Virus record (IMG/VR): IMGVR_UViG_3300049736_000180
Location: 1-22,279 of that record
Source of the DNA: a virus
DNA: 22,279 bases
Direction: 5' to 3' (one strand)
A model generated the notes under the pieces. The model was given only the letters and a program-made list of their open reading frames with translations. It was not told where the DNA came from and ran no database searches. This document shows, piece by piece, positions 1,472-18,603 of the stretch. The translations under genes were made by a program, and so were the position numbers. Position 1 is the first letter of the stretch. Each line of letters opens with the position of its first letter.

Positions 1472-1476
1472 CAGCC

Positions 1477-1506
1477 TTGACAATGCCATCAGCTTTTTAG
1501 TATACT
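1477..1506 (+). promoter_or_regulatory. sigma70-type promoter before cobS-like gene
   Basis: A perfect -35 TTGACA (1477-1482) is followed after 18 nt by -10 TATACT (1501-1506). The -10 sits in a perfect 10-bp palindrome TAGTATACTA (1498-1507), so a regulator could bind there. The -35 context GCCTTGACA is the same as at the methyltransferase promoter (14566-14574). The expected transcription start, about 1513-1514, coincides with an in-frame ATG at 1514. Confidence 0.75.
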
Positions 1507-1543
1507 ATAAAAGATGAGAAAACAAATTGAAAACGGAGACTAT

Positions 1544-2782
1544 ATGACAAATTCAATTGATGTAAACGGTAAGAAATTTTCTTACACACCCGACAGGGCG
1601 GAGTTTTTGGGAGAACTCGTTTCTAAATTCCCTAACCAAACGTCCTTTGGAAGGAAAGAAATCAAAGATGCCTTTGATGGTTATTTCCCTTCATGGATAA
1701 AATCCTCGAAGTATAACTTCAAAGAAGCTCAAGAGACTGGGCCTTTGTTGTACAACCTTCAGGCTGTTATTACTGGTTACAATGGTGGGTATTCAGATGA
1801 TGCCACTCCTGTTCCAGTTAAACCTGCTCCAATTGCAGCTGTTGCTTCCCCAAGTAACATGCCAGTTGCAGCTCAAACAGAGTCAGTCAATCTACTTGAC
1901 GATGGTGTAAAAATCATTCCCGAGAAGATGTCTAACTATGTTCCTTTTGGACATTTCAAAGATGTCAAGAATATTATTAAATCCAAAATCTTTTTTCCAG
2001 TATTCGTTACTGGTCTGAGTGGTAATGGTAAAACTCTTATGATTGAACAAACGTGTGCTCAATTGAAGAGAGAACTCTACAGGGTTAACATCACCATCGA
2101 GACAGATGAAGATGACCTAATGGGTGGTCACACTTTAGTAAACGGTAACGTTGTCTTCAGAGAAGGGCCAGTTATCAAAGCAATGAGAAAAGGTGCTGTA
2201 CTTCTATTAGACGAAGTCGACCTTGGTTCAAACAAGTTGATGTGTCTACAATCAGTTCTTGAAGGTAAAGGATACCTAATCAAGAAAACTGGTGAGTGGG
2301 TTTCACCTAAACAGGGTTTCACAATCCTTGCGACTGCAAACACTAAAGGACAAGGTTCCGATGATGGAAAGTTCATAGGAACTCAAATCATGAACGAAGC
2401 CATGTTGGAAAGATTTGCAATCACAATGCAACAAGAATATCCACCAGTGAAAACTGAGAAGTCAATCCTTTCAAAAGAAATGGAATTGACTGGTGACGTT
2501 GATGCAGACTTCGTTGAGAAGCTTGTTGACTGGGCTGACATTATCAGAAAAACATATTACGAAGGTGGTATTGATGATGTTGTTACGACTAGAAGATTGG
2601 TTCACATTGTCAATGCATTCAGAATGTTCAATGACAAACTCAAGTCAATCACTATGTGTATTTCAAGGTTCGACGAAGAGACTAGAAATAGTATCCTCGA
2701 CCTCTATTCCAAGATTGATGCTGGGATAGATTTGAATGCTGAAGAAATTTCAGAAAACCCTGTTGACGAAACAGGGTACTAG
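1544..2782 (+). CDS. cobS: CobS-like (MoxR-type) AAA+ ATPase
   Basis: A 412-aa AAA+ ATPase of the dynein-related/MoxR type, common in marine T4-like phages under the name CobS. Walker A GLSGNGKT is at residues 157-164 and Walker B VLLLDEVD at 219-226. An N-terminal domain of about 115 residues, then a Pro/Ala-rich linker, precede the ATPase core. In the family these ATPases act with VWA proteins, and the VWA gene lies just upstream, so the two are probably a chaperone- or remodelling-type pair. The cobaltochelatase role of bacterial CobS is unlikely, since no other cobalamin genes are seen. The start at 1544 is chosen because GGAG lies 5 nt before it. An in-frame ATG at 1514 lies right at the predicted transcription start and would add 10 residues if a leaderless message is used. 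Confidence 0.9.
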   Translation: MTNSIDVNGKKFSYTPDRAEFLGELVSKFPNQTSFGRKEIKDAFDGYFPSWIKSSKYNFKEAQETGPLLYNLQAVITGYNGGYSDDATPVPVKPAPIAAVASPSNMPVAAQTESVNLLDDGVKIIPEKMSNYVPFGHFKDVKNIIKSKIFFPVFVTGLSGNGKTLMIEQTCAQLKRELYRVNITIETDEDDLMGGHTLVNGNVVFREGPVIKAMRKGAVLLLDEVDLGSNKLMCLQSVLEGKGYLIKKTGEWVSPKQGFTILATANTKGQGSDDGKFIGTQIMNEAMLERFAITMQQEYPPVKTEKSILSKEMELTGDVDADFVEKLVDWADIIRKTYYEGGIDDVVTTRRLVHIVNAFRMFNDKLKSITMCISRFDEETRNSILDLYSKIDAGIDLNAEEISENPVDETGY

Positions 2783-2797
2783 GAGTATACTGGTATC

Positions 2798-3094
2798 ATG
2801 TTTGGTAAAAAAGTTCAAACAATAGACTACAAATACAATGAGCAAGAACTCCTCAAGGAGTTCAAGCTCTACGTAGACAAAACATACGGTGAACATTATT
2901 CCAAAGATAAGTTTCAGGCAACTGAGTTTATTATGGATGGTGGTCACGGTGAAGGATTTTGTATCGGGAACGTGATGAAATATGCACAACGATACGGCAA
3001 GAAGGGTGGTTATAATCGTGCTGACCTTCTCAAGGTAATTCATTATGGATTCCTTGCTTTGTACAACCACGATAATTATAAGGAGACTAACTAG
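2798..3094 (+). CDS. DUF3310-like protein
   Basis: A 98-aa protein with the pattern of phage DUF3310 proteins: a short N-terminal region, then G-N-x-x-K-Y (about residues 57-62), a KGG turn, and an L-x-K-x-x-x-Y helix near the end. DUF3310 also occurs as the C-terminal part of T7 gp1.7-type nucleotide kinases, but the kinase part is absent here. Its biochemical role is not established. An AGGAG at 2781-2785 is 12 nt from the ATG, longer than usual. The gene sits between the CobS-like ATPase and the sliding clamp and ends where the clamp gene begins, so it is probably cotranscribed with replication genes. The family call comes from pattern memory and is moderately sure. Confidence 0.7.
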   Translation: MFGKKVQTIDYKYNEQELLKEFKLYVDKTYGEHYSKDKFQATEFIMDGGHGEGFCIGNVMKYAQRYGKKGGYNRADLLKVIHYGFLALYNHDNYKETN

Positions 3095-3096
3095 TG

Positions 3097-3762
3097 ATGA
3101 AAATTAGTAATGATACGAAAGATGTTCTAAAGAACTTCTCTACAATCAACTCGGGCATTCGAGTCAAAACAGGCAACAAACTGGAAACTATTTCCAATAT
3201 GAAAAACATTCTTGCAGTAGCAACTGTGGCTGAGGACTTCCCTCAAGACTTCAGTATCTACAACCTGCCAGAATTCTTAGGTGCAACATCCTTAATGGAT
3301 GACCCCGACTTCCAATTCAATGATTCCTCATTGTCTGTGGCAGATAACAATTCCTCATTGTCATATTTCTATGCAGCTGAAGGAATGGTAACTGCACCCG
3401 AAAAAATGATAACTATGCCAGAGGCAGAGATAGAATTCAAAGTAACGTCAACATTATTGACCGACCTTAAGAAAGCTGCAGCTGTCCTAGGTGTTAATGA
3501 TTTGATTCTCAAATCAGATGGTACTAATGTGACATTGATTGTCACAGACAAGAAGAGTGATACCTCTAATACATTCTCAAGAATCGTAGGTGAAGGTGAT
3601 GGAACTTCTTATGAAATGAATTTCAAGATGGAGAATCTTAAAATTCTAGATGGTAACTATGATGTTCAAGTATCATCAAAAGGTATATCTCATTTCAACA
3701 ATGCAGATGTAGAGTTGGAATACTTTATTGCACTGGAGCCTGACAGCAAATACAATGCCTAA
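3097..3762 (+). CDS. 45: sliding clamp (gp45)
   Basis: A 221-aa protein matching the T4 gp45 sliding clamp in length (T4: 228 aa) and at both ends: the N-terminal pattern K-[IL]-S-x-D-T-x-x-x-L-K-N-F-x-T-I-N-S-G-I and the C-terminal ALE/DS pattern. Gp45 forms a trimeric ring on DNA that tethers polymerase gp43 and, in T4, also activates late transcription. It has no enzymatic motifs, as expected. A GTG at 3094 overlaps the previous stop and could add one residue; the ATG at 3097 is preferred because it is 10 nt after AGGAGA. It is followed by gp44 and gp62, the loader that opens it. The order 45-44-62-regA is that of T4. Confidence 0.93.
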   Translation: MKISNDTKDVLKNFSTINSGIRVKTGNKLETISNMKNILAVATVAEDFPQDFSIYNLPEFLGATSLMDDPDFQFNDSSLSVADNNSSLSYFYAAEGMVTAPEKMITMPEAEIEFKVTSTLLTDLKKAAAVLGVNDLILKSDGTNVTLIVTDKKSDTSNTFSRIVGEGDGTSYEMNFKMENLKILDGNYDVQVSSKGISHFNNADVELEYFIALEPDSKYNA

Positions 3763-3772
3763 CCTATATAAT
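3740..3772 (+). promoter_or_regulatory. weak candidate promoter before gp44
   Basis: A TATAAT (3767-3772) inside an AT-rich run at the end of gp45 is preceded by CTGACA (3740-3745). The spacing is 21 nt to TATAAT, or 19 nt to the overlapping TATATA at 3765-3770, so the match is poor. It would start a transcript leading into the structured leader of gp44. Confidence 0.3.
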
Positions 3773-3814
3773 AATAGTGTGAATATTGTGCCAGTCTCTG
3801 CAATATACGCGGGA

Positions 3815-5902: not shown

Positions 5903-6097
5903 ATGTGGGACTTTATAAGTAGTGTATGGGCATTTATGTCAGCCATTCCAGCAATCATTTCGATTTGTTCAGTGATTGTTATGCTTACAGATACACCTAA
6001 AGACGATGCTCTTTGGGCAAAATGCTATAAATACATAGAAGTCTTTGCTCTAGCAATAGGAAAAGCAAAGGATAAAAATCCATTATTGGATAAGTAA
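5903..6097 (+). CDS. small membrane protein
   Basis: A 64-aa protein with one hydrophobic helix (residues about 5-28), a short acidic turn (TDTPKDDA), then a mostly helical tail ending in Lys-rich residues. It has no signal peptidase site, so it is probably an inner-membrane anchor. It follows a strong ribosome site (TAGGAGATAAC). Upstream, GATAAATA (5867-5874) resembles a T4-type late promoter (TATAAATA), which would make it a late gene, but the match is imperfect. Size and topology would fit a holin or a structural microprotein; nothing decides this. Confidence 0.7.
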   Translation: MWDFISSVWAFMSAIPAIISICSVIVMLTDTPKDDALWAKCYKYIEVFALAIGKAKDKNPLLDK

Positions 6098-6114
6098 ATA
6101 ATTAGGAGAACATT

Positions 6115-6366
6115 ATGGACAGTACAACAGGGATAGTATTACTACTCGTATTGGCGGTCGTGTTTTTCGTTGTTAAAGGAAAAGATAAAAAGGTTAAACC
6201 TAAATCTGTTCCTTCCAAAGCAAAGCCTAAAGCACCTACAGTTGCAGAGTTGAAGAAACTCACAAAGAATCAACTAGTAGAACTTGCAGAAAAGAAGAAC
6301 CTTAAGGTTAAAAAATCTGGCGCAAAGGCTGCAGTTATCAGCGAAATTCGTGAACAATTGAAGTAA
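6115..6366 (+). CDS. membrane-anchored SAP/Rho-N-like protein
   Basis: An 83-aa protein in three parts. An N-terminal membrane helix (about 6-20) is followed by a Lys/Pro-rich linker (KDKKVKPKSVPSKAKPK) and a C-terminal helix-extended-helix of about 35 residues with the pattern LTKNQLVELAEKKNLKVKKSG. That pattern resembles SAP or Rho N-terminal domains, which bind nucleic acids. It has a good ribosome site (TTAGGAGAAC) and lies 17 nt after the previous gene. A clear intrinsic terminator follows its stop, so it ends a transcription unit. A DNA-to-membrane tether is conceivable but is inference. The domain call is by pattern and only moderately sure. Confidence 0.7.
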   Translation: MDSTTGIVLLLVLAVVFFVVKGKDKKVKPKSVPSKAKPKAPTVAELKKLTKNQLVELAEKKNLKVKKSGAKAAVISEIREQLK

Positions 6367-6382
6367 CTCTTAACAGAGTTTG

Positions 6383-6412
6383 AAAAAGAGGGACGTTTAT
6401 CGTCCCTTTTTT
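6383..6412 (+). terminator. intrinsic terminator
   Basis: A 7-bp GC-rich stem AGGGACG (6389-6395) pairs with CGTCCCT (6401-6407), loop TTTAT, followed by a T-run to 6412. An A-run before the stem pairs with the T-run, so it could work on both strands. It separates the regA-side genes from the curli island. Confidence 0.9.
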
Positions 6413-6447
6413 GCGCTTACAAGAAAGTAAAAAGAATAAATAATTGC

Positions 6448-6744
6448 ATGAATGAGATATTTGAGTTGATAGGTGAAGTGGGAGCCCCAATTGCTGGAAG
6501 CATAGTCATGGGATTCTTTATCTTTACTGTTATCAAACAAATCCTTGAGGGTGTTGTTGACGATATAAAAACGTTAACGATGTTCTGCAAGTCCTTAGAA
6601 AACCGTGCGAGAACAATGTCAAATGAAATGATTAAGATTGACATGTTAGTTTCATCAGCACTTGAATTGAGACCCGACATAGAACGTATTGCACGTGCAG
6701 AAAACTTTATAGAAGACGGTAAGCTCGACGTAAGAAGAGATTAA
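6448..6744 (+). CDS. small membrane protein
   Basis: A 98-aa protein with one N-terminal membrane helix (about residues 12-30, starting near APIAGSIVMGF) and a long, charged, probably coiled-coil tail. I do not recognise a family. It is the first gene after the terminator at 6383-6412, and no good sigma70 promoter is seen before it; AATAAATA (6435-6442) only loosely resembles a late promoter. The ribosome site is weak. It is followed after 1 nt by another protein of similar build and then by csgF, so it may belong to the curli transcription unit. Confidence 0.7.
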   Translation: MNEIFELIGEVGAPIAGSIVMGFFIFTVIKQILEGVVDDIKTLTMFCKSLENRARTMSNEMIKIDMLVSSALELRPDIERIARAENFIEDGKLDVRRD

Positions 6745-6745
6745 C

Positions 6746-7063
6746 ATGGAAACTGAAGTTGTTGAAGTTGTAGCAAATACAGACCCCACGTTAGTTACTC
6801 TACTGAATGAATATGGTTTTCCTATTGTCATGATGGTTGGCCTGGGATATTTCATTTATTATATTTGGTGGTTTGTAGGTGAAAAACTAGAACCCGAAAT
6901 AGAGAAACAGCATTTTGCACTTATCAAAGTTATTGACCAAGTGAGAATGTTAGACCAAGATTTAATTCGTTTACAACAAAAGGTAGACGTAGTTCTTGAA
7001 TATAAAGAGAACGCAAAAAAGAAAGAGGTTAAGAATGCAGAAAATAGCAGCGATAATAATTAG
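6746..7063 (+). CDS. membrane and coiled-coil protein, possibly holin-like
   Basis: A 105-aa protein with a short extracytoplasmic N terminus, one membrane helix rich in Gly/Tyr/Trp (about residues 26-45), and a long C-terminal coiled coil that ends in Lys/Asn-rich sequence. Single-helix proteins with a coiled tail include the BhlA/UviB holin-like group, but the similarity is only in layout. Its 3' end overlaps the csgF start by 29 nt, so it is cotranslated with the curli genes. An accessory role in curli secretion is equally possible. Confidence 0.68.
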   Translation: METEVVEVVANTDPTLVTLLNEYGFPIVMMVGLGYFIYYIWWFVGEKLEPEIEKQHFALIKVIDQVRMLDQDLIRLQQKVDVVLEYKENAKKKEVKNAENSSDNN

Positions 7064-7496
7064 TATTTCTTTTGCACTTAGTGTAAGTGCAGATGAAATT
7101 GTTCACAAATTTAAAAGTCCAAGCTTCAGTGGAATAGGAATATCTGCACATTATCTTACAATTGAAAATCAAGAGAAGTCAAGACGTGATAAAATAAAGC
7201 AAGACTTGGAAGATGCAATTGCAAAAGCAGATAGGGAAGCTCAGAATACAACGCTTGCCAAATTTTTAAGGAACGTAGAGAGTAGAATCTACGCTCAGTT
7301 AGCAAAACAGTTAGTTGAAAATATGTTCTCAAATGGAACTGCAGCTAATTATGGTACATTTGTAATGGAAGGAAACACTGTTACATATGAAAGAATGACT
7401 GGGGAAGATGGTGTCGATTTCATAAGATTAACAATTGTTACTGAAGATGGAACAACAACAGTTTTAGATATACCAGTAGGAACAGGAAGCTTCTAA
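7035..7496 (+). CDS. csgF: curli assembly protein CsgF
   Basis: A 153-aa CsgF homologue (E. coli CsgF: 138 aa). It begins with a signal peptide (residues 1-19, ending SVSA). Mature CsgF starts with a segment that plugs into the CsgG pore; here this is the F-K-S-P-S-F-S-G block, matching F-R-N-P-N-F-G-G in E. coli. The middle carries the family helix ending in NVESRIYAQLAKQLVENMF and the C-terminal part is beta-rich. CsgF sits at the outer face of the outer membrane and couples the CsgG pore to the nucleator curlin. The ATG at 7035 is chosen because the signal peptide starts there; an in-frame upstream start would add 13 basic residues. csgG follows after 3 nt. No csgE is seen. Confidence 0.88.
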   Translation: MQKIAAIIISISFALSVSADEIVHKFKSPSFSGIGISAHYLTIENQEKSRRDKIKQDLEDAIAKADREAQNTTLAKFLRNVESRIYAQLAKQLVENMFSNGTAANYGTFVMEGNTVTYERMTGEDGVDFIRLTIVTEDGTTTVLDIPVGTGSF

Positions 7497-7499
7497 ACA

Positions 7500-8408
7500 A
7501 TGAAAAATATACTAACAGTAGGACTACTAGTTCTACTCATGAGTGGGTGTGCTAGTATTCCCAGCATGACAGACTCATGTTCTTCCATTGTGATGGAAAG
7601 GTTAGGTACATGCGTTGAAGAAGCAGAAGTGGTAAATATACCTACTTATCAAGAGTTGTCTGATTTACCAGCAGCGGATACGATGCCAGTAGTTGCAGTA
7701 TACGCTTTTCAAGATAAGACAGGACAACGTAAGAGTAAAGATGGAATTGCATCTTTCTCTACTGCAGTAACCCAAGGTGCAGAATCATTTTTGATTGATG
7801 CCTTGAAGACTGCTGGAAAAGGTAAATGGTTTAGAGTTGTAGAAAGAACAAACTTAGATGCACTAATAAGAGAGCGTCAAATAGTTCGTTCTGCAAGAGA
7901 AGACTTTGCAAACCAAGATGGAAATGAGAATGCTCCAACAGGTATTCAACCATTGCTGTTTGCTGGTATCCTGCTTGACGGTGGGATAGTTGGTTATGAT
8001 ACTAACATTGAAAGCGGTGGTAGAGGCGCAAGATACTTAGGTATTGGTTCAAGTGCTTCCTATCGTAGGGATGTTGTCACCATATCGTTGAGAGGAATAT
8101 CAACTTTAACAGGTGAAATTTTGCTGAATGTACAGACTCAGAAAACGATTCTTAGTACAGGTGGTGGTTATGATGTATTCCGCTTCGTTGATATGGATAC
8201 GAAGTTAGTGGAAATGGAAGATGGCGTCGCAGCCAATGAGGGAGTTACAAAAGCAACTCGTTCAGCGATAGAACTTGCCGTCTTGGAACTAATATACCAA
8301 GGTCATGATAGAGACTTTTGGATAATAAAGGATGGACATCGACACCCACATGGAACTCATGGAAGGAACGAGAAACATTCAACAGAGGAAATAACAGATG
8401 AAGAATAA
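7500..8408 (+). CDS. csgG: curli secretion pore CsgG
   Basis: A 302-aa CsgG homologue (E. coli: 277 aa), the outer-membrane lipoprotein that forms the nonameric pore for curlin export. The lipobox LMSGC puts the lipidated Cys at residue 17. Family patterns are clear: DKTGQ followed by F-S-T-A-V-x-Q-[GS]-A, then ERTNLDALIRERQIVR, an SGGRGARYLGIG transmembrane-hairpin region, the TGEILLNVQTQKTIL strand, and the FRF(V/I)D segment. The C-terminal 35 residues are His/Glu-rich, unlike E. coli. It overlaps the first curlin-like gene by 11 nt. The host must have an outer membrane and lipoprotein sorting for this to work. Confidence 0.95.
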   Translation: MKNILTVGLLVLLMSGCASIPSMTDSCSSIVMERLGTCVEEAEVVNIPTYQELSDLPAADTMPVVAVYAFQDKTGQRKSKDGIASFSTAVTQGAESFLIDALKTAGKGKWFRVVERTNLDALIRERQIVRSAREDFANQDGNENAPTGIQPLLFAGILLDGGIVGYDTNIESGGRGARYLGIGSSASYRRDVVTISLRGISTLTGEILLNVQTQKTILSTGGGYDVFRFVDMDTKLVEMEDGVAANEGVTKATRSAIELAVLELIYQGHDRDFWIIKDGHRHPHGTHGRNEKHSTEEITDEE

Positions 8409-9126
8409 AATATTACTCATGATGTTAACATTAGGAGCGTCAACTTTAGCATTTGCTGGAGCAGACGATAATGAAGTTTGGTTACAACAATCGGGTACTG
8501 CGCTTACTTTAAACATAACACAAAAAGGTTATGGTAACAAAGTTGGTGGTGATGACTTTAGTGGTACGTCAATAGATATGTTATTGACTGGTGCTACCAA
8601 TAGTTTAACACTAGTACAATTCGGTGACAGTAACAAACTATACGGCCCATTCATTGCAGATAGTTCAACAGTAAATTTAACTTTTACTGGTGATTCAAAC
8701 TCAATGGATTGGAACGTTGGTTATCAAGGTTCAGCAGATAACTTAAATATGTTAGGAGCTGTTACAGGTTCATCTAACACATTTGATATTGATGTTGGAT
8801 ACGACCAGTCTGCAGAATACTTAAACTGGGACTTAGTAGTAGGTGGTTCAAGTAATGTATTCACAACAAAGATAGATAGTGACAATGCTGTTTGGAACTG
8901 GACTGTTACAGGTTCAACAAATGACATTAATACTATTCAGGCAGACGCAACAGATAATAAAATTACTGCAGTCTTAACTGGTTCAGGCAATGATATAGAT
9001 ATCATTCAAAAATCGGGTTCAGATACAGGTTGTCCAAGTGGTCAGTCATGTAGTGGTATTATTGATGTGAGCTTCGTGACTTCTAATGCAAATATTGACA
9101 TCGTTCAAAAAGACGATAACGATTAA
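8398..9126 (+). CDS. curlin-like fibre subunit 1
   Basis: A 242-aa secreted protein with a signal peptide (about residues 1-20, ending LAFA) and many Asn/Gln/Gly/Ser-rich repeats of the curlin type (pattern roughly N-x5-Q-x-G-x-x-N, for instance LNITQKGYGN, LTLVQFGDSN and IDIIQKSGSD). Repeats are more degenerate than in CsgA, with Trp-rich versions in the middle. Near the end is a C-x5-C pair (CPSGQSC), followed by a last strand with I-x-I-V-Q. It should be exported through CsgG as an amyloid-like subunit or nucleator. It overlaps csgG by 11 nt and the FecR gene by 41 nt. CsgA versus CsgB cannot be decided. Confidence 0.85.
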   Translation: MKNKILLMMLTLGASTLAFAGADDNEVWLQQSGTALTLNITQKGYGNKVGGDDFSGTSIDMLLTGATNSLTLVQFGDSNKLYGPFIADSSTVNLTFTGDSNSMDWNVGYQGSADNLNMLGAVTGSSNTFDIDVGYDQSAEYLNWDLVVGGSSNVFTTKIDSDNAVWNWTVTGSTNDINTIQADATDNKITAVLTGSGNDIDIIQKSGSDTGCPSGQSCSGIIDVSFVTSNANIDIVQKDDND

Positions 9127-10225
9127 TTTTCTTCTGATTGGTTCACTTGCAATTGCAGCTGAACCAATTGGTGAAATAGTCGAACAGAAAGGATACGCGG
9201 GTTTACAGAGAGACGGTTCAGAAACCATTCTCTCTGCATCCGAGTTACCCGATGTGCTGATGTATGATACAGCACAAACCGTAAACGGTAGAATGAAAAT
9301 CCAGTTCAAAGGAACTGAAGAGTTGGATTTAACAGAACATACCAAGGTTTGGATAGACGAGGTTTATTATGACCCCGACCCATCCAAGTCCAAAATGGCC
9401 ATAAGAATGGCACAAGGCACCGCCCGATTTGCTTCGGGTTTTGGTGGAAAAATTAAGAAAGCTAACATAAATATAACTACCCCGACTGCACAGATAACAG
9501 TCAACGGCACCGACTTCACTACAAGTATTGATGAAATCGGAAGGTCACTTGTTATATTGCTGCCTGATAAATGGGGAGCTCCTTCGGGAAGTATTTTAGT
9601 TAGTAATGCAGGCGGTGAAGTATTATTAGATGAGGCCTATCAAGCAACTATGGTTTCTACATATGACTCATCACCAACTAAACCAGTAGTGGTTAATGGG
9701 ATTACACCCAGTTTAATTGACAACTTATTCATTGTCAGTCCACCCGACGAGGTGAATGAACAAGTTGCAGAAGAACAAAGAAGTAACGAGAATGATAGTA
9801 ACAATGTTCTTGATGTAGATTTCTTAGAGTTCAATGACCTAGAAGAAAATTACTTTGAGGATGATGAATTAGAATACACGGAACTCGACAGAGATTTATT
9901 AGATGTCGATTTCCTACAGGATTTACTAGATGTTGTCTTGGATATTGACCGTAAGGTTGGTATTGATAGAGAAGTATCTAATGCCTTCGGAGTGGTTCGT
10001 ATTGACGGAACTCTGCCAGGCTTTGATAAAGACACTCAATACAATACAATTGTAGACAAGGGTCTTGGTCAGATATGGTTCTACAGGGAAGTGAATGGAA
10101 TTATTTCTATTAGACTCCCTATATATGCTCAAGCAAATATTAGAACTGTAACAGACGAAAAGGAGTCACTAATAAGGGTGGGTGATGGTTCGTCTCTAAA
10201 TATCACCATCACACAAACAAACTAG
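9086..10225 (+). CDS. secreted FecR-domain protein
   Basis: A 379-aa protein with an N-terminal signal sequence (basic residues 8-9, then FLLIGSLAIAA, cleavage near 25). A FecR domain follows at about residues 35-165, with the typical DLTEHTKVWIDEV strand and TPTAQITVNGTDF segment. Residues 235-290 are very acidic, with LDVDFL at 242 and again at 272. The C terminus (LNITITQTN) looks like a single curlin strand. FecR domains sense or transmit envelope signals, and FecR proteins often neighbour CHASE2 cyclases, as here (11164). The ATG at 9086 lies inside the curlin gene (41-nt overlap) without a clear ribosome site, so translation is probably coupled. No sigma factor gene is present, which argues against the classical FecI/FecR scheme. 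Confidence 0.82.
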   Translation: MQILTSFKKTITINFLLIGSLAIAAEPIGEIVEQKGYAGLQRDGSETILSASELPDVLMYDTAQTVNGRMKIQFKGTEELDLTEHTKVWIDEVYYDPDPSKSKMAIRMAQGTARFASGFGGKIKKANINITTPTAQITVNGTDFTTSIDEIGRSLVILLPDKWGAPSGSILVSNAGGEVLLDEAYQATMVSTYDSSPTKPVVVNGITPSLIDNLFIVSPPDEVNEQVAEEQRSNENDSNNVLDVDFLEFNDLEENYFEDDELEYTELDRDLLDVDFLQDLLDVVLDIDRKVGIDREVSNAFGVVRIDGTLPGFDKDTQYNTIVDKGLGQIWFYREVNGIISIRLPIYAQANIRTVTDEKESLIRVGDGSSLNITITQTN

Positions 10226-10233
10226 GAGAATAT

Positions 10234-10380
10234 ATGAATATCATAGAAAAGTTCCGCTCATGGCATGAAAAACAAATCTTTGGATTTCAAGAAGCAATGA
10301 GACTAGATGACTACCACATGATGTGGTTGGCATTCGGTGAGGGAGTTGTCTTATGTTTATTATTTCAATGGTTATTCTAA
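10234..10380 (+). CDS. 48-aa membrane microprotein
   Basis: A short reading frame of 48 codons with an excellent ribosome site (TAGGAGAATAT) just before its ATG, 8 nt after the FecR gene. The N-terminal half is charged and amphipathic (EKFRSWHEKQIFGFQEA), and the C-terminal half is one hydrophobic helix (about residues 31-48) ending in Trp-Leu-Phe at the stop. The second curlin-like gene starts 7 nt after it. It has no recognised family. The ribosome site and tight spacing argue for a real gene, perhaps an accessory of curlin export or of the FecR protein. Confidence 0.6.
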   Translation: MNIIEKFRSWHEKQIFGFQEAMRLDDYHMMWLAFGEGVVLCLLFQWLF

Positions 10381-10387
10381 AAAGAAT

Positions 10388-11029
10388 ATGAAAAGAATTT
10401 TATTATTAATTTTATTGACACCTGTAGCATGGGCTGGGGACAACCACGTCCATGTCGAACAGGTTGCAAGCGGTGATGGGACAGACCTTAACATATCCCA
10501 AGTTGGTTTTGATAACACAATCAACTTCACATTTGCACACGCAAACAATACCTTCAACTTATCACAACAAGGAAGTGGTAATTCTATTTCTTGGGTATCC
10601 TATTGGGGCTCTGGAAAAAGTTGGGGTGGTGATGTAGATGGAACAAACAATACAGAATCAGTTCAACAACTAGGTGGTGCAACATATGGTAGACACATAT
10701 GGGGTAATAGTAATACAGTAAATGTATATCAGAGTGGTACACATACACACAACCTAGACATTCATGCAGATAGTGTAGACCATGATTTACATCAATCGGG
10801 TAGTGGAAGTCACTACAACCATACATATTTTTATGGTAATACAGATGGTTCTGATACTAACATATCTCAAACAGGGAGTGCAAATCATAACTCTCAAATC
10901 AGATTACAAGGTTCATATAAAACAGACTTGAATCTAACTCAGACTGGTTCTACAGCAAAGTCATACAATCTTACACAAAATTGTGTAACTGCTGGTGGAT
11001 GTACAATAAGTATTACACAGAGTGACTAA
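10388..11029 (+). CDS. curlin-like fibre subunit 2
   Basis: A 213-aa secreted protein with a signal peptide (residues 1-17, ending VAWA) and about seven curlin-like repeats, for example LNISQVGFDN, FNLSQQGSGN, VNVYQSGTHT, TNISQTGSAN and LNLTQTGSTA. These fit the curlin pattern (Q-x-G spaced from Asn) better than those in subunit 1. The middle is rich in His, Tyr and Gly. A C-x5-C pair (CVTAGGC) precedes a final strand ISITQ at the C terminus, as in subunit 1. The ATG at 10388 is chosen for the signal peptide. CsgA or CsgB identity cannot be fixed. The stop is directly followed by the next ATG (TAAATG). Confidence 0.87.
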   Translation: MKRILLLILLTPVAWAGDNHVHVEQVASGDGTDLNISQVGFDNTINFTFAHANNTFNLSQQGSGNSISWVSYWGSGKSWGGDVDGTNNTESVQQLGGATYGRHIWGNSNTVNVYQSGTHTHNLDIHADSVDHDLHQSGSGSHYNHTYFYGNTDGSDTNISQTGSANHNSQIRLQGSYKTDLNLTQTGSTAKSYNLTQNCVTAGGCTISITQSD

Positions 11030-11194
11030 ATGAAACAGTGGTTATTTAACAAGATGGTTCCATATGCCATCCAATTCAGAGAGTGGTCAAAGGGGAAAAC
11101 ATGGATACAAATCCCATTGTGGATTTTTATATTATGGATGTTAGGATTTGCTAATCCTTACTGGTGTGTTTATCCCGTCTGCTGGATTCAGTAG
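11030..11194 (+). CDS. 54-aa membrane microprotein
   Basis: A 54-codon reading frame that begins directly after the stop of curlin-like subunit 2. It has a basic N-terminal half (KMVPYAIQFREWSKGKTW) and a Trp-rich hydrophobic helix (about residues 27-41), then a short tail with two Cys. Its 3' end overlaps the cyclase reading frame. The stop TAG runs into GTG (TAGTG at 11192-11196), an alternative start for the cyclase, so it may couple translation of the cyclase. No family is recognised. The start has no strong ribosome site of its own; coupling with the curlin stop is likely. Confidence 0.5.
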   Translation: MKQWLFNKMVPYAIQFREWSKGKTWIQIPLWIFILWMLGFANPYWCVYPVCWIQ

Positions 11195-13035
11195 TGTACA
11201 GCTGGAAGACAGTATTAGTAACAATAGGTTTACTATTTACACTTAAGATTTGGAACCCATACTTCATAGAGAATATCTCTTGGACATGGTTCGATTACTT
11301 ACATCAACAACAAGGAGAATTTTATGTGGATGACATCGTTCTTGTCGACATCGACGAGAAGTCTCTTGAAACTTTTGGACAATATCCTATACGTCGTGGT
11401 ATTTACCGTGACCTTCTTCTTGATACCCATTATAGCAATACTCATATTTTTGGTATGCTATTTTCTAAACCCGACAGAGACCCAACTCAAGACCCGATAT
11501 TTGCAGAGGGATTAGTCAACCGTCTCACAATCCTTGGAGCTGCTCCAACATCACAAATTCAAAAAGGTTCTGCACCATTTGTAGGTAATTCAACATTTGG
11601 TGGTGGTAATCCAAAAGATTTTCTTTGGAACTTCGATGGAATCGTCTCACCCATCTCAATACTGATGGAAAATACTTATGGGGTTGGAGTTGTGACGGCT
11701 ACTCCAGCTGTCACTGGAACACCAAATTTTGATGGTACTACGCGGTCTGTACCCCTATTGGTTACGGCAAACGATGAAGTATACCCATCACTAATGTTAG
11801 AAGCTTTAAGAGCTCTTAAAGGTGAACCTAGTTATCAGACAAAGATTACACCCGAAACTGGTGTAGAGTGGGTACGGATGGGAAGAGACAAACCGATAAC
11901 CACCACTCCAACCAGTGATGTAATGGTATCCTACTGGAATAAATTCCATAGAATTTCTGCTGTAGATTTACCCGAATCTAATTTCGAAAATAAGATTCTC
12001 GTGTGGGGTCTGACTGCAGAGGGTTTGAATAATCCAGTTTCAACCCCAATGGGAGTAATGTATCCCCATGAAGTGCAAGCGAACCTGCTCCAAACCGTTT
12101 TGACAGGAGTTCAAATACAACAATCCTACTATCTTGAATCCTTAGAGTCTGTTCTTCTTCTGATAGTCCTACTAATGATATTGGGTTTGGTCTACAAAGC
12201 TCCCACACTTCTTTCGGGGGTAGGGAGTCTATTGCTTGTAGTATGCCAGATTGGCGGGAGTTATTATATTTGGACTTCAGAGCTCGTTCTTTTCGATACC
12301 TTCTTTTCATCGTTGGCCTCCTTAGTTGTTTTTGGACATGCATCATTTAACAAATACTATGTAACTTTCCAAGAAAAGCAACAAATCAAGAAGCAGTTCC
12401 AAAAGTATTTATCACCCGACATGATTGAAGAGCTCCAAAAACATCCCGAAAAATTGAAACTTGGTGGAGATAGAAGGGAGATGACCTTCATGTTTATGGA
12501 CATATGTGGGTTCACCCCCATAAGCGAAGCGTTCATGAAGAATGATGACCCCGAAGGATTAGTTGAATTAATTAATAAATTCCTAGACTTACAGACAAAA
12601 ATTATTCTAAATAATGGTGGAACTATAGATAAATACATGGGCGACTGTATTATGAGTTTTTGGAATGCTCCCATGGATTGTCCCGACCATGCCGAGATGG
12701 CAGTGAAGTCTGCAGAAGAAATATTAATTGCAACCAAGGAACTCAATGAAGAACTTAAACCACTTAATCTCCCGCCTATCAATGTCGGCATTGGTATTAA
12801 TACTGGGGAGTGCATCGTTGGAAACATGGGGTCAGAACTTAGATTTGACTATTCCGTCATTGGAGATGCAGTTAACCTCGGAGCTAGACTCGAAAGCCAA
12901 ACACGAAATTATGATGGGGTGGACGTGTTGTTGGGCGAAGCAACATATAGACAGTGTCCATCTAGAGCATTCTCAGAAGTTGATAGAATTACAGTTAAAG
13001 GAAAATCAGTTCCAGTCACAGTTTACACCATCTGA
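11164..13035 (+). CDS. CHASE2-class III nucleotide cyclase
   Basis: A 623-aa membrane enzyme predicted to make cAMP. An N-terminal membrane helix (about 14-30) is followed by a periplasmic CHASE2 sensor domain (about 35-320), three membrane helices (about 325-395), and a C-terminal class III cyclase domain. Both metal-binding Asp are present (D446 in MDICGFT, D494 in KYMGDC). The substrate Lys is K490, and the transition-state Asn and Arg are N571 and R575. The second adenine-specifying position is Ser (564), where class IIIb enzymes usually have Thr, so activity is likely but substrate choice should be tested. Start is GTG 11164, or GTG 11194 coupled to the upstream stop. Its FecR neighbour is a known association. 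A nucleotide cyclase in a phage is unusual. Confidence 0.9.
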   Translation: MCLSRLLDSVVYSWKTVLVTIGLLFTLKIWNPYFIENISWTWFDYLHQQQGEFYVDDIVLVDIDEKSLETFGQYPIRRGIYRDLLLDTHYSNTHIFGMLFSKPDRDPTQDPIFAEGLVNRLTILGAAPTSQIQKGSAPFVGNSTFGGGNPKDFLWNFDGIVSPISILMENTYGVGVVTATPAVTGTPNFDGTTRSVPLLVTANDEVYPSLMLEALRALKGEPSYQTKITPETGVEWVRMGRDKPITTTPTSDVMVSYWNKFHRISAVDLPESNFENKILVWGLTAEGLNNPVSTPMGVMYPHEVQANLLQTVLTGVQIQQSYYLESLESVLLLIVLLMILGLVYKAPTLLSGVGSLLLVVCQIGGSYYIWTSELVLFDTFFSSLASLVVFGHASFNKYYVTFQEKQQIKKQFQKYLSPDMIEELQKHPEKLKLGGDRREMTFMFMDICGFTPISEAFMKNDDPEGLVELINKFLDLQTKIILNNGGTIDKYMGDCIMSFWNAPMDCPDHAEMAVKSAEEILIATKELNEELKPLNLPPINVGIGINTGECIVGNMGSELRFDYSVIGDAVNLGARLESQTRNYDGVDVLLGEATYRQCPSRAFSEVDRITVKGKSVPVTVYTI

Positions 13036-14568: not shown

Positions 14569-14598
14569 TTGACAGCATTGTGCTAAATACTGTATAAT
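14569..14598 (+). promoter_or_regulatory. sigma70 promoter of the DNA-modification genes
   Basis: A perfect -35 TTGACA (14569-14574) and a perfect -10 TATAAT (14593-14598), spaced by 18 nt. The expected start of transcription, 6-7 nt on, falls on the ATG at 14605, so the message would be leaderless or nearly so. The -35 context GCCTTGACA is shared with the promoter at 1477. Confidence 0.8.
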
Positions 14599-14604
14599 GG
14601 AGTC

Positions 14605-15879
14605 ATGATGAGTAATAAATATTTTCAATACAACCTAGAAGACCTTCATCGTAACAGTGAAAGTAAACAGTTTAATTACATTACTTTCTTTGCTGGTGGT
14701 GGGGGTTCTTCATGTGGTTACAAACTCGCAGGTGGTGACGTTCGATACATGAACGAGTTCCAACAGATTCATGTTGACACCTACCTAGAAAATTTCCCCA
14801 ATACAGTTCATGAATGTAGAGACATTAAAGAAGTCACTGCAGAAGGAATCATGGAGCTGACTGGACTTAAAAAATATGAATTAGATATCATGGATGGGTC
14901 ACCACCTTGTCCACCATTTTCTATGGCAGGTTCCAAGAAAGAAGGATGGAATCAAGAGAAGATGGCATATGGTATGAAGCAACAGAACATCGAAGACCTA
15001 ACATGGGAAATGATTAGGATTGCTGAAGGGTTAATGCCTAAAGTTATAGTATGTGAGAACGTGAAAGGTCTCTCGATGGACTATGCAAGAGACCATCTAA
15101 ACAAGATGGTAAATGATTTCGAAGCACTAGGATACTCAGTGACTTGGAAAATCATGAAGGGACATCAGCATGGTGTACCTCAGAAGAGAGAAAGAGTATT
15201 CATGGTTGGTGTACGTGATGATGTACTAGAAGGTATTGGAATGCCTTGGATGTGTATGTCTTCAGTCTTCCCCGACCCAGTTAAAGAATTTGCATCCATT
15301 GAAGATGCAATTCAAGATTTAGAAACCGATGAAGAGAATATGAAGGATGCAGCTTATCTAGAAACTGCAATGGACGATTCATCAAAAGGACATTGGGTAA
15401 ATGGTTTTGAACAACATCCCGATGAGAAGTTCAAGGATTGTGGCCCATGTGGTGGAGTTACACCTATACTACATGAGAGAGACAATCAAGCATATGTTTC
15501 TATTGGAGACCACATTGTTAAACCTTGGTTCCAAGAACAGATTAGAAACGGACACATACAACCCGAAGACGAGAAACATTCTTACTACATGTCAAGAATA
15601 GTTCCTAAACATTTACCAGCCCATTCATTAACTGAACAGGGATGTCAACCCAAGTTTATGGGTGGTAATCATTTCCATCACAGTGGTAGAAGAATTTACA
15701 CACCAAAAGAAATGGTGAGATTAATGACTCTACCAAATGATTATAAAATGACTGGTGACTACAATGATAAAGGTGCAAGAATAGGATTGATGGTTGCACC
15801 ATTATGTATGTATTACCTAGTCGAAAACATTAAAGGACAAATATTAGAACCATGGAATTCACTGCAACAAAAGACTTAG
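14605..15879 (+). CDS. DNA cytosine-C5 methyltransferase
   Basis: A 424-aa enzyme that transfers a methyl group from S-adenosylmethionine to carbon 5 of cytosine in DNA. Motifs are in the usual order: I FFAGGGGSSCGY (SAM binding, about 28-39), IV GSPPCPPFS with catalytic Cys at residue 102, VI ENVKG, VIII QKRERVFMVG, then a target-recognition region of about 140 residues, IX R-R-x-Y-T-x-x-E-M-x-R-L, and a diverged motif X near GARIGLMVAPL. All catalytic residues are present. The next gene, a TET-like dioxygenase, overlaps by 28 nt, so 5-methylcytosine is probably an intermediate. No restriction endonuclease is near. A second ATG at 14608 is better spaced from GGAG (14599-14602). Target sequence is unknown. 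Confidence 0.95.
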   Translation: MMSNKYFQYNLEDLHRNSESKQFNYITFFAGGGGSSCGYKLAGGDVRYMNEFQQIHVDTYLENFPNTVHECRDIKEVTAEGIMELTGLKKYELDIMDGSPPCPPFSMAGSKKEGWNQEKMAYGMKQQNIEDLTWEMIRIAEGLMPKVIVCENVKGLSMDYARDHLNKMVNDFEALGYSVTWKIMKGHQHGVPQKRERVFMVGVRDDVLEGIGMPWMCMSSVFPDPVKEFASIEDAIQDLETDEENMKDAAYLETAMDDSSKGHWVNGFEQHPDEKFKDCGPCGGVTPILHERDNQAYVSIGDHIVKPWFQEQIRNGHIQPEDEKHSYYMSRIVPKHLPAHSLTEQGCQPKFMGGNHFHHSGRRIYTPKEMVRLMTLPNDYKMTGDYNDKGARIGLMVAPLCMYYLVENIKGQILEPWNSLQQKT

Positions 15880-16853
15880 GATTTAAAGAAACATTTAAGA
15901 AATGGAACGGTAAGTATCTTACTGAAGATTCTTATGACACTGTTATCTCATCCATTGGTGTAGAAGATGATACTATTAAAATATACAAACCTCATGGTAC
16001 ACTCATGGGTGAAACTTTACTTGCATGTATAGTAAAGAAAGCATACAAAGGTAAAACTTATAGAACAGTTAAAGACACTTTGTTCTCTATAGATGATACA
16101 TCTACAATGAGAGCAAATGCAGCCGGGCCTATCGACCACGAAGAAATGAAAGCAAAAGGATTAATCGAAGGTAAAGACTATGTCCTAAGAACTCCAAACA
16201 GTTATTATCCATTAAAGAAGAACGGTGAGTTCAATCGTATTGCAGAAGCAAATGAGATTCATTCAGTTCTAATCGGGTATAAACGTGGCAGATTCACAGG
16301 AATGATTAAGGCAAGTGGTTGGATGGATAAGAAAGCAAACAAAGAAAAGTTTGAAACCCTTCAACAGATTGCACAAGTAAATGAACAAGCATTAAAGACT
16401 GCAGTTCCCGAGATATGGAATATGCAAAGAACATTTGCAGATGAATGTATAGAAGAGAAATACCATATCGGTGGAGCTCCTATGACAGCGTTATCTGCAA
16501 ACAAATATTCAACTGGTGGGACTGCAAAGATGTCTGCACATTTGGATGGAAAAGATTTAGAGTTCGGAATGACAACTATGTGTGTCTTCCGTATTGGAGA
16601 ATTTGGGGGTGCATACTTATGTTTCCCTAGATATGGTATTGCTATTGAAGCAGATGATGGAGACGTACTGATTGCAGATTCAAATGAATTGCATGGTGTA
16701 TCACCTATCACTGGTGAAGGAGTAAGGTTATCATGTGTTGCATATTGTGATGAACATGTTGCAACTAAAGGGAGAGCTGGAAAGACTGAGAATCCTATCG
16801 GCCCACATGCTGGAAAGTATGAGGAGAAAGGTTCACTCGACAGCTTTTTCTAG
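15852..16853 (+). CDS. TET/JBP-like 5-methylcytosine dioxygenase
   Basis: A 333-aa protein predicted to be a 2-oxoglutarate/Fe(II) dioxygenase of the TET/JBP family, which oxidises the methyl group of 5-methylcytosine (or thymine) in DNA to hydroxymethyl. The core is near the C-terminal half: H-x-D (H230, D232) in SAHLDG, a GGAYLCFP turn, ADDGDVLIADSNELHG with the distal iron-binding H281, and the 2OG-binding R292 in GVRLSC. This order and the G-D-V-x-[IL]-x-x-x-x-E-x-H pattern are those of the Tet_JBP domain. The N-terminal half is family-specific. It overlaps the methyltransferase gene by 28 nt, the best functional clue. An alternative is a thymine-oxidising JBP-type activity; 5mC is favoured by the context. 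Confidence 0.82.
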   Translation: MEFTATKDLGFKETFKKWNGKYLTEDSYDTVISSIGVEDDTIKIYKPHGTLMGETLLACIVKKAYKGKTYRTVKDTLFSIDDTSTMRANAAGPIDHEEMKAKGLIEGKDYVLRTPNSYYPLKKNGEFNRIAEANEIHSVLIGYKRGRFTGMIKASGWMDKKANKEKFETLQQIAQVNEQALKTAVPEIWNMQRTFADECIEEKYHIGGAPMTALSANKYSTGGTAKMSAHLDGKDLEFGMTTMCVFRIGEFGGAYLCFPRYGIAIEADDGDVLIADSNELHGVSPITGEGVRLSCVAYCDEHVATKGRAGKTENPIGPHAGKYEEKGSLDSFF

Positions 16854-16879
16854 ACCTAAATAATAATGTATCAACTGGA

Positions 16880-16926
16880 ACGTTTCCTTTTGGACATCAA
16901 ACGTCAAATCATATCCCCGTGGGATA
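16880..16926 (+). promoter_or_regulatory. two hairpins before the ParB-like gene
   Basis: In the 83-nt gap, ACGTTT (16880-16885) pairs with AAACGT (16899-16904), and TATCCC (16912-16917) pairs with GGGATA (16921-16926) across the loop CGT. The second stem ends on the first base of the ribosome site AAGGAG (16926-16931). It could limit ribosome access or process the message. No T-run follows, so termination is unlikely. Confidence 0.45.
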
Positions 16927-16936
16927 AGGAGTAAAA

Positions 16937-18073
16937 ATGACAACACAACAACACCTGTTCGCAGGTTTAAAAAAGAGCTACGATATAGAACTCACCCGAG
17001 AACTATGTCCACCCAAAGAAACTTATCAAACTTGTAAATTCAAGAAAAGACTTGTAGTACACAAGGATAAGATTCACATCATTGACCCTATTACAGGGGA
17101 ACCATTGCAACCGAGAGAAGAAATCAATCTCACTCAAAATGTTATTGAGATTAAAACTTCATTCAAGTACAGAGGTTGGTTACATTCAGAAGAACCATTA
17201 TTTGTACAAGTCGCTGCTGATGGAAACTTCATTCTAAGAAGTGGATTCAACAGATACAAAGCTGCAACGGAAAGTGGTTGGGAATATCTATTAGTAGATG
17301 TGTATGAAGATGCACCAGTCCAAAAGGACAACATTGCATTTAAGTATGTTTGTAACAATACTAACCTACCATCTAAACCTAATAAAGATATTGACTTCAT
17401 TAGAGGTGTAGTAGAAGCGATTGATGCAAATGCAATCAATCAAGAAGTCGAAGAAGAGATAATCTCATTCTTAAAACAAATCACATCAACAGATGATGGT
17501 ATGCGTTTAAAGACAGATGAAGAGATTGTCAATTATGTCGATGTAACAGAAGTAAATGACGATGGTTCAGAGAGTACTATTCAAGAACTATCAACTTCAT
17601 GTTTACTATATAAGGTCTACAGACAGAGAGGAAAGAACAGAAACATTCTACCGTTAGATGGTAAGGGTGCAAACCAAATTCTAAACTCTCTTGGAAAGGG
17701 ATGGGCTGGAGCAAGAAACAAAGATGTAACTGAGTTAGGTTATTGTTTTGAGAAGAAGACTACATGTCACAGGATACTGTGGGATGGTATGAAGCTTTAT
17801 AACAAGTATCAAACACCTATCATGTTATATGGTTATGTTGAGAATCCCTCATCAATGACTTTAAAGTCTGATAGAATAGAAACACTTGCAAGATACGAGT
17901 GGTTCATAGAAGAATGTGTAAGAAGATTTACGGATTCTCTTGACTATCACAAGATGGGACTTAACTTCATGGAACTTGAATGGAAGTTCAGAGAAATCTT
18001 TCAGTGGGGTGGATTTATACCTCAAGATAAAACACCACATTGTGATGAAAGTGGAAGGATAGTAGAACTATGA
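16937..18073 (+). CDS. ParB-like nuclease-domain protein
   Basis: A 378-aa protein with a ParB/sulfiredoxin-type domain at about residues 60-115: the EEPLFVQ strand, a DGNFILRSGFNRYKAA segment that matches the ParB pattern (G-x-x-x-[IL]-x-x-G-x-x-R-x-x-A), and a GWEYLLVDVYE strand. The rest is unassigned, with a large charged C-terminal region (about 240-378). ParB-like domains are found as CTP-binding clamps, as nucleases, and in phage DNA-modification gene clusters. Its place between the TET-like and kinase genes suggests it guides or completes base modification. It does not look like a partition protein, as no ParA is near. The stop overlaps the kinase start by 4 nt. Confidence 0.75.
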   Translation: MTTQQHLFAGLKKSYDIELTRELCPPKETYQTCKFKKRLVVHKDKIHIIDPITGEPLQPREEINLTQNVIEIKTSFKYRGWLHSEEPLFVQVAADGNFILRSGFNRYKAATESGWEYLLVDVYEDAPVQKDNIAFKYVCNNTNLPSKPNKDIDFIRGVVEAIDANAINQEVEEEIISFLKQITSTDDGMRLKTDEEIVNYVDVTEVNDDGSESTIQELSTSCLLYKVYRQRGKNRNILPLDGKGANQILNSLGKGWAGARNKDVTELGYCFEKKTTCHRILWDGMKLYNKYQTPIMLYGYVENPSSMTLKSDRIETLARYEWFIEECVRRFTDSLDYHKMGLNFMELEWKFREIFQWGGFIPQDKTPHCDESGRIVEL

Positions 18074-18603
18074 TTATAATGGTTGGTGGAGTTCCATGTT
18101 CGGGAAAGTCAACTCTCATGAGAAGACTTATCTCTAGGTTAGATGAACCCAATCTAATTGAACCGATGAAACTATTTAAGTGCCAAGAACATGGTGACAT
18201 ATTAGTAGTCGGTCAATATCCCGAGGGAGAGACATTCGGCGGAACTGATAAGCTCTCTCACGGTTCTATCCCACAGTTTAGAGAGTTCATTGAAGCAATG
18301 AACATTGCATACAAACATGTTCTTATAGAAGGTGACAGATACTTTAGAGGAGTAGACATAGAATGGTTAATGGATAATCATGAAGCAAGAGTCTATGTAC
18401 TTACTGTAGGACTAGAAGAAGAACATAATCGTCATGCAGAAAGAGGAGACACACAATCAGAAGTGTGGTTAAAGGGAAGAAGAAGTCAGATAAATAATAT
18501 ATTAACAAACATGAACTTGTTAGGACAACTACAGATTCGTGATAATGATTCAATAGAATCATCTATGAAAATAGAGGAAGAAATTTATGCCAGAATTATT
18601 TGA
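18070..18603 (+). CDS. P-loop kinase, candidate DNA-base kinase
   Basis: A 177-aa P-loop kinase. Walker A GGVPCSGKST is at residues 6-15. A central segment GTDKLSHGSIPQFREFIE and the following strand HVLIEGDRYF resemble phage kinases that phosphorylate 5-hydroxymethyl bases within DNA (from pattern memory, not verified). A lid-like region with E-x-x-x-R-x-x-x-R follows (EEEHNRHAERGD). If the preceding enzymes make 5-hydroxymethylcytosine, this kinase could activate it by phosphorylation, opening the way to further substitution. A general nucleotide kinase or a zeta-toxin-like kinase is the main alternative. It overlaps the ParB-like gene by 4 nt. Confidence 0.75.
   Translation: MIIMVGGVPCSGKSTLMRRLISRLDEPNLIEPMKLFKCQEHGDILVVGQYPEGETFGGTDKLSHGSIPQFREFIEAMNIAYKHVLIEGDRYFRGVDIEWLMDNHEARVYVLTVGLEEEHNRHAERGDTQSEVWLKGRRSQINNILTNMNLLGQLQIRDNDSIESSMKIEEEIYARII

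Follow-up and report, generated by a model that had tools for sequence, protein, structure and literature searches.

What can a phage do with 5-hydroxymethylcytosine (5hmC) in its DNA other than attach a sugar to it? The question is raised by the virus record IMGVR_UViG_3300049736_000180 of IMG/VR, whose 22,279 bases (a fragment of some 22 kb, called the window here) carry the T4-type replication genes gp45, gp44 and RegA by Pfam scan and, in a row, genes for a C5-cytosine DNA methyltransferase (MTase), a TET/JBP-type dioxygenase, a ParB-like protein, and a P-loop kinase (Table 1). This operon of a marine T4-like phage probably directs a post-replicative series that leads from cytosine through 5-methylcytosine (5mC) and 5hmC to phosphorylated 5hmC. 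The MTase would make 5mC in phage DNA after replication, TET would oxidize it to 5hmC in DNA, and the kinase would move the γ-phosphate of ATP onto the hydroxymethyl group to give 5-(phosphooxymethyl)cytosine. This charged, bulky mark would replace the sugar put on the same base by sister phages and would most likely guard the DNA from nucleases that recognize C, 5mC, or 5hmC, while the ParB-like protein would be optional, perhaps acting as a clamp on DNA that aids the enzymes in moving along or choosing it. A sequence-only reading of the window had proposed an MTase-TET-kinase chain on cytosine; its support now comes from (i) the enzyme families, (ii) the exchange of the kinase for glycosyltransferases (GTs) in one slot, and (iii) the kinship of the kinase to 5-hydroxymethyluracil (5hmU) DNA kinases.

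Table 1. Features of the modification operon and its borders (window coordinates; conversions are predicted).
Feature	Position	Strand	Basis or remark
Sigma-70-type promoter (TTGACA, 18 nt, TATAAT)	14569..14598	+	Ends 6 nt 5' of MTase start codon
C5-cytosine DNA methyltransferase, 424 aa (predicted C to 5mC)	14605..15879	+	PF00145, Cys102
TET/JBP-type 2OG-Fe(II) dioxygenase, 333 aa (predicted 5mC to 5hmC)	15852..16853	+	PF12851, HxD...H...R
ParB/Srx-fold accessory protein, 378 aa	16937..18073	+	ParB_N sub-threshold; AlphaFold2 model
P-loop kinase, hydroxymethyl-pyrimidine DNA kinase family, 177 aa (predicted 5hmC to phosphorylated 5hmC)	18070..18603	+	phrog_800, PF18751
phrog_3998 protein, 101 aa	18587..18892	+	Overlaps kinase gene; PHROGs match

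Two Enzymes That Would Make 5hmC in DNA

All four genes are real open reading frames (ORFs), packed as closely as the sequence-only reading had described (overlaps of 28 and 4 nt, one gap of 83 nt), and the same operon is found again in IMG/VR contigs and in an isolate, phage Melnitz; thus, the ORFs do not stand together by chance. The MTase matches PF00145 (DNA_methylase; 8.3e-49, 167.2 bits, cut-off 22), and Cys102, singled out earlier, lies within an SPPCPPFS motif; this residue and the ENV block are invariant in 17 aligned MTases. The second enzyme falls inside, not outside, the TET/JBP family (PF12851 Tet_JBP; 1.4e-13, 50.9 bits, cut-off 34.9), with the expected H230, D232, H281, and R292 in place; this HxD...H...R set is unchanged across all 25 TET-like proteins aligned, including those from actinophages and Cr30. 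Comparison of the TET sequence with solved-structure sequences gave nothing of use. Saguaro gp2, considered as a TET, was dropped because it is not one by Pfam.

How tightly are the two enzymes linked? A TET-protein search of IMG/VR gave 80 loci (the best 80 of 84 relatives, cited below by L numbers). The MTase gene ends no more than 80 nt from the TET start in 67 of them; the contig begins less than 400 nt from TET in six, and the MTase lies 3.1 kb upstream of TET in two (L081, L082). MTase and TET are strongly paired in the lineage of the window, with L045 as the sole exception. The overlap of the MTase gene and the AGT and TAGT glycosyltransferases of sister operons lead us to infer that the TET substrate is 5mC, not thymine. 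Further enzymes were sought in twelve records with an MTase-TET pair: 11 from IMG/VR (seven with a kinase, four with a GT), whose contigs may be incomplete, and the complete genome of Melnitz, which has a kinase. PF00303, to which dCMP hydroxymethylases belong, was found in none of the 11 and not in Melnitz, which would leave DNA as the only place where 5hmC arises.

Kinases and Glycosyltransferases Exchange in One Slot

The slot that follows TET is filled in two ways. Kinase-type slots hold a kinase alone, a ParB-like gene plus a kinase, or two kinases in tandem. GT-type slots hold an epimerase and a TAGT (L032-L035, L076, L077), a TAGT and an AGT (L049), GT8 and an AGT (L051), GT8 and a TAGT (L052, L053), or two TAGTs (L056); the slot GTs score 1.7e-73 against AGT PF11440 and up to 2.4e-15 against TAGT PF20691. 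Among 26 TET-bearing records (all 25 of at least 20 kb among the 80 loci, plus Melnitz), 18 have a kinase and eight a GT (AGT in two, TAGT in seven), none has both, and none has neither; AGT and TAGT are absent from all 18 kinase-bearing records. In agreement with the sequence-only reading, no GT of the window was found in the slot or among its 18 Pfam-scanned ORFs.

Did the exchange happen more than once? On a TET tree of 69 rows (Melnitz plus 68 of the 80 loci; the short L014, L057, and L079 and the less than 60% identical L080-L088 were left out, and L043 and L068, whose slots are unreadable, are unlabelled), the kinase/GT state needs two changes, i.e., at least two independent swaps. Two changes are again needed when only the 13 GT rows backed by Pfam or by BLAST to a Pfam-scanned gene are labelled as such (L055 and L063, GT by eye, are excluded), and a tree with all GT rows in one clade is rejected (p 5.4e-11). 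The module sits in two genomic contexts, peroxiredoxin...lysozyme and gp44...regA, and each holds both the kinase and the GT versions. In the distant loci, a kinase lies near TET in L080, L083, L084, and L087, a TAGT-like gene in L085 and L086, and neither in L081, L082, and L088. Exchange within one slot points to a shared substrate, 5hmC made by MTase and TET; it is hard to explain otherwise.

The Kinase Family

Is the enzyme that stands in for a GT a DNA kinase? Against PHROGs, it falls in phrog_800 (8.8e-12), of which M6 gp54 (2e-39), a Cr30 protein (4.7e-24), and a LittleMunchkin protein (1.6e-30) are other members. Pseudomonas phage M6 gp54 is, we take it, the 5-hydroxymethyldeoxyuridine (5-hmdU) DNA kinase (5-HMUDK) that Lee et al. 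reportedly described in 2018. One paper (PMC6449724) mentions that a 5hmdU DNA kinase has been purified from M6. In Pfam, the window kinase lies just above the cut-off for PF18751 (Ploopntkinase3; 1.5e-6, 28.3 bits, cut-off 27). Across 34 kinases, G7, P9, G12, K13, T15, G58, T59, D60, E87, G88, R90, R121, and Q129 are invariant, and the AlphaFold2 model, built from 34 sequences, has a mean pLDDT of 93.9. A search with the kinase profile against solved-structure sequences matched mainly P-loop stretches among the matches listed (best 60 of 155); M6 gp54 gave nothing of use against the same kind of target.

Could the enzyme be an ordinary (deoxy)nucleoside monophosphate or small-molecule kinase that sits in the operon by chance, leaving the DNA with 5hmC as its final base? 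Its fold is common to AK6, NRK1, gluconate, and guanylate kinases, its Pfam score is barely sufficient, and in the viral structure library BFVD an entry labelled adenylate kinase stands at rank 4 for the model. However, the 5-hmdU DNA kinases of PhiW-14 (rank 8, E 2.2e-6, TMq 0.69) and SP10 (rank 11, E 1.5e-5, TMq 0.66) follow in the same comparison, the enzyme is kin to the kinases linked to TET and to the amino acid:DNA transferase (ADDT) of the thymine pathway, it keeps the GTD and EG(D)R motifs, and it trades places with DNA glycosyltransferases without ever joining them in the 26 records. Chance placement of a metabolic kinase is thus the least probable of the alternatives considered here, and profile searches did not put this protein among ordinary nucleotide kinases; that placement would have refuted the sequence-only reading.

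Database labels are a poor guide to this family. The name terminase small subunit (PHROG, RefSeq) was rejected for the kinase: M6 gp54 bears the same label, which looks positional. In NC_025422, NC_048106, NC_051587, and NC_007809, TET-like proteins are annotated as SNF2 repair protein or as queuine tRNA-ribosyltransferase, and members of the DNA kinase family terminase small subunit or adenylate kinase. A second kinase in tandem occurs in L070 (5868-6398), L073 (3544-4116), L074 (7533-8105), and L075 (7475-8047), with altered motifs in aligned copies (GTEVIT for GTDKLS and EC for EG in L073, a deletion in L070); it is a degenerate paralogue that may serve as a partner or regulator.

A Kinase Borrowed From the Thymine Pathway?

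Where did the kinase come from? A wider search for the kinase pattern yielded at least 33 loci, 31 of them beyond an earlier kinase search, and the counts are lower bounds. Among the matches listed, 67 kinase loci divide into 33 with MTase and TET and without ADDT, eight with TET and ADDT and without MTase, one with all three (L144, whose MTase match is weak and apart from the cluster), seven with TET only, two with MTase only, two with ADDT only, and 14 with none. On the kinase tree, also drawn from the matches listed, the MTase-linked kinases form one clade (100/99) nested among ADDT-linked kinases, and the label changes once (19 MTase-linked and 12 ADDT-linked rows); the count remains one when L045 is not labelled MTase-linked and L148, with a weak ADDT, is left out. 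The clade also contains L129, which is unlabelled, and L045. At six positions (E31, F36, Q39, H83, W99, E118), 18 MTase-linked kinases all have the same residue, which nine ADDT-linked ones lack. Thymine is already 5-methylated and TET can act on it directly; cytosine first needs an MTase. This pattern suggests that a kinase was borrowed from the thymine pathway into a cytosine pathway, which fits the earlier proposal of a new branch, as a variant that would use a thymine-pathway kinase.

Several observations weigh against a kinase acting on 5hmC. The kinase model matches many P-loop and small-molecule kinases in the PDB about equally (best Z 12.9), so the fold alone does not identify the substrate. 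The enzyme shares a PHROG with M6 gp54 and a fold with the PhiW-14 and SP10 5-hmdU DNA kinases; it differs from them in its predicted base, 5hmC, and direct BLAST to M6 gp54 finds little beyond the P-loop. A 5hmU DNA kinase phosphorylates 5hmU, not 5hmC, according to one report (PMC6457204), so a shift in the specificity of the window kinase has to be assumed. Because the MTase-linked kinases arose once, their association with the MTase is a single event. As to partners, 14 of the 67 kinase loci listed have none (12 of these have less than 1.5 kb upstream), and L127 and L138 carry MTase-ParB-kinase with no TET in the available piece. No MTase was found in the whole records (5.5 to 20 kb) of L045, L080, L083, L085, and L086. 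The nine distant TET loci (L080-L088, 52-57% identity) have a looser gene order: the MTase is adjacent in L087, 3.1 kb off in two, and not found in the other six records. L045 (20 kb) has TET-kinase at 5998-7546 without MTase; either its MTase lies elsewhere or its substrate is host 5mC or thymine. In L127, the MTase-ParB-kinase genes (153-3069) are followed by an ORF (3254-3802) that looks by eye like a 2-oxoglutarate/Fe(II) (2OG-Fe(II)) oxygenase.

The Fate of the Phosphate

If 5hmC is phosphorylated, is the phosphate the end product? In the thymine pathway, the route runs via a phosphorylated intermediate, as described in one paper (PMC6449724), and ADDT (PF18724) is the partner of the kinase's nearest relatives; it was detected in Cr30, Kozie, and LittleMunchkin. 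By analogy, the phosphate on cytosine could be a leaving group, and a transferase encoded elsewhere in the phage or host would give amino- or alkyl-methylcytosine. However, ADDT turned up neither in Melnitz nor in any of the 11 MTase-TET records from IMG/VR, and the operon contains no such transferase. The sequence-only notion of kinase-activated 5hmC is therefore upheld for the kinase and not for activation, the leaving-group partner being missing from all twelve records (eight with a kinase, four with a GT).

Does any other gene travel with the kinase? Five kinase genomes (G001, G004, a 97-kb contig, G005, G008, and Melnitz) were compared with two GT genomes (G006, G009) by tblastn at 1e-4 in 20-kb pieces, so that a gene interrupted at the border of a piece may have escaped notice. 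Among the G001 and G005 ORFs of at least 70 aa, only two are present in 5/5 kinase and 0/2 GT genomes, the kinase itself and a PF13640 2OG-Fe(II) oxygenase; thus, no dedicated further transferase is seen. The oxygenase can be counted in favor of a leaving group, as can the many ORFs without assigned function; the pathway may stop at the phosphate, or a later step may fall to the oxygenase or to another protein. On balance, phosphate as a mere leaving group is unlikely. The preferred reading, carried to its end, is that a 5hmC kinase was re-targeted once from 5hmU kinases and leaves a stable 5-(phosphooxymethyl)cytosine in virion DNA, swapped with glycosylation; in this full form, we advance it tentatively, as a possibility that falls somewhat short of probable. 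A copy of the PF13640 gene in L165 (7097-7729, minus strand) is a possible extra pathway step.

The ParB-Like Protein and Its Variable Slot

What does the fourth protein do? The sequence-only reading had called it ParB-like, which holds by fold and not by profile: ParB_N scores below the cut-off (E 0.028, 14.9 bits vs 26.3, Pfam), and a comparison with solved-structure sequences gave no match. In the AlphaFold2 model (pLDDT 80.3), the first 230 residues adopt a ParB/Srx fold (model residues 19-231; Z 9.0-10.8 for the ten best chains, which include KorB, ParB, Noc, PadC, and pNOB8 ParB-N), residues from about 242 to 367 match known structures weakly (Z below 4), and QPR and GFNR-like motifs are visible by eye.

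The same reading had made this protein a step of the pathway, a role that the relatives contradict. Among 51 kinase-bearing loci with a readable slot, 19 go from TET to the kinase directly and two have another gene. A ParB-like gene is present in 30 (L072 being counted by eye) and absent in 19, with nine changes on the TET tree, and identity among the encoded proteins falls as low as about 22%. The pathway does not need the ParB-like protein for catalysis; it is an optional accessory.

Such turnover could also be a sign of conflict: the MTase, TET, and kinase could mark the phage's own DNA while a nuclease or nickase from this slot attacks DNA that lacks the marks, whether the host's or that of rival phages, much as in restriction-modification. 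In L071 (3426-3992) and L078 (6986-7552), the gene between TET and the kinase has a pattern, VDL...VVECK, resembling that of PD-(D/E)XK nucleases, which agrees with such a weapon, though the L078 product scores weakly against Mrr_cat (0.14) and DUF6602 (0.036). A weapon of this kind is nonetheless very unlikely, since the slot is empty in 19 loci and the best structure matches of the ParB-like protein are CTP-binding partition proteins and sulfiredoxin. Two other slot proteins, in L072 (6996-8270) and L002 (6269-7552), appear by eye to join a ParB-like part to an N-terminal extension like a GIY-YIG nuclease; Pfam gave no family for them.

Relation to Known Modification Systems

Burke et al. 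(2021) are said to have described phage clusters of C5-MTase, TET, and glycosyltransferase genes and the TET-associated glycosyltransferase (TAGT, PF20691). The window resembles these clusters in its adjacent, first-acting MTase and TET, and close relatives of its operon within the same phage lineage belong to them; it differs in having a kinase, with or without ParB, where the GT stands. Thymidine systems also have clusters in which a TET/JBP protein stands with a ParB-like protein and a P-loop kinase of the family seen here: in Rhodococcus phage Tonitrus, the genes for ParB, TET/JBP, aGPT-Pplase2, and 5-hmU DNA kinase are regarded as maybe a thymidine hypermodification system (PMC11955845), and the same four-gene set is listed among the nucleotide modification enzymes of Gordonia phage CaiB (PMC9302106). 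Unlike these, the window has a C5-MTase and no ADDT (aGPT-Pplase2).

Cytosine systems offer two further comparisons. In T4, 5hmC is made by dCMP hydroxymethylase before incorporation, as summarized in the MetaGPA paper (PMC8670742), and is tailored to glucosyl-5hmC in DNA after replication; AGT itself fills the slot in L049 and L051, whereas no PF00303 enzyme turned up in the relatives of the window that were searched. The 5hmC carbamoyltransferase found by MetaGPA is likewise a tailoring enzyme for 5hmC from environmental phages; its donor is carbamoyl, it lies beside thymidylate-synthase-family genes, and it is active on free 5hmdCTP (PMC8670742). The word kinase does not occur in the main text of that paper, and a literature search, mostly without subscription papers, found no 5hmC DNA kinase and no phrase "hydroxymethylcytosine kinase," which is weak evidence of novelty.

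Why would a phosphate matter? If the proposal is true, phosphate joins glucose, other sugars, and carbamoyl as a decoration of 5hmC, one kinase lineage went from thymine to cytosine by gain of an MTase and loss of an amino-acid transferase, and a 5hmC kinase would be a reagent for labelling 5hmC. The swap with GTs suggests an arms race in the ocean with modification-dependent nucleases. Melnitz, a cultured Methylophilales phage of OM43, carries the operon, so the question is directly testable; its gene 5, the MTase, is read as a type II methylase in the Melnitz paper, and its TET and kinase genes are annotated as hypothetical in the record.

Promoter and Neighboring Genes

The operon begins behind the perfect promoter that had been noted from the sequence (TTGACA at 14569-14574, an 18-nt spacer, TATAAT at 14593-14598). 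It is the sole 12/12 match among 18 promoter-like sites in 4.7 kb, a number at chance level (16.7 expected); the -10 box is kept in near relatives, and the -35 box is missing in some (L019, L023, L028). With the -10 box only 6 nt from the MTase ATG, transcription would begin close to the start codon, and the predicted mRNA would be leaderless or nearly so. A GGAG sits between the end of the -10 box and the ATG, which together span 14593-14607.

At the other end, the gene of the phrog_3998 protein is also found where GTs fill the slot (L032-L035), so the protein is probably not part of the modification pathway.

Elsewhere in the window, curli-like genes occupy 6996-11029 and encode CsgF (PF10614, 3.5e-13), CsgG (PF03783, 1.9e-49), and a FecR-domain protein. 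Two further proteins of this region carry signal-like stretches at the N-terminus and score below threshold against Curlin_rpt (0.025 for one, with three stretches, and 0.13 for the other). According to the Melnitz paper, phages have csgFG but no csgA or csgB; the two Curlin_rpt-like proteins may be the missing fibre subunits. Positions 11164-13035 encode a predicted membrane sensor cyclase with a CHASE2 domain (1.3e-29) and an adenylate/guanylate cyclase catalytic domain (3.1e-16); this gene also occurs in relatives in which the module has the peroxiredoxin...lysozyme context.

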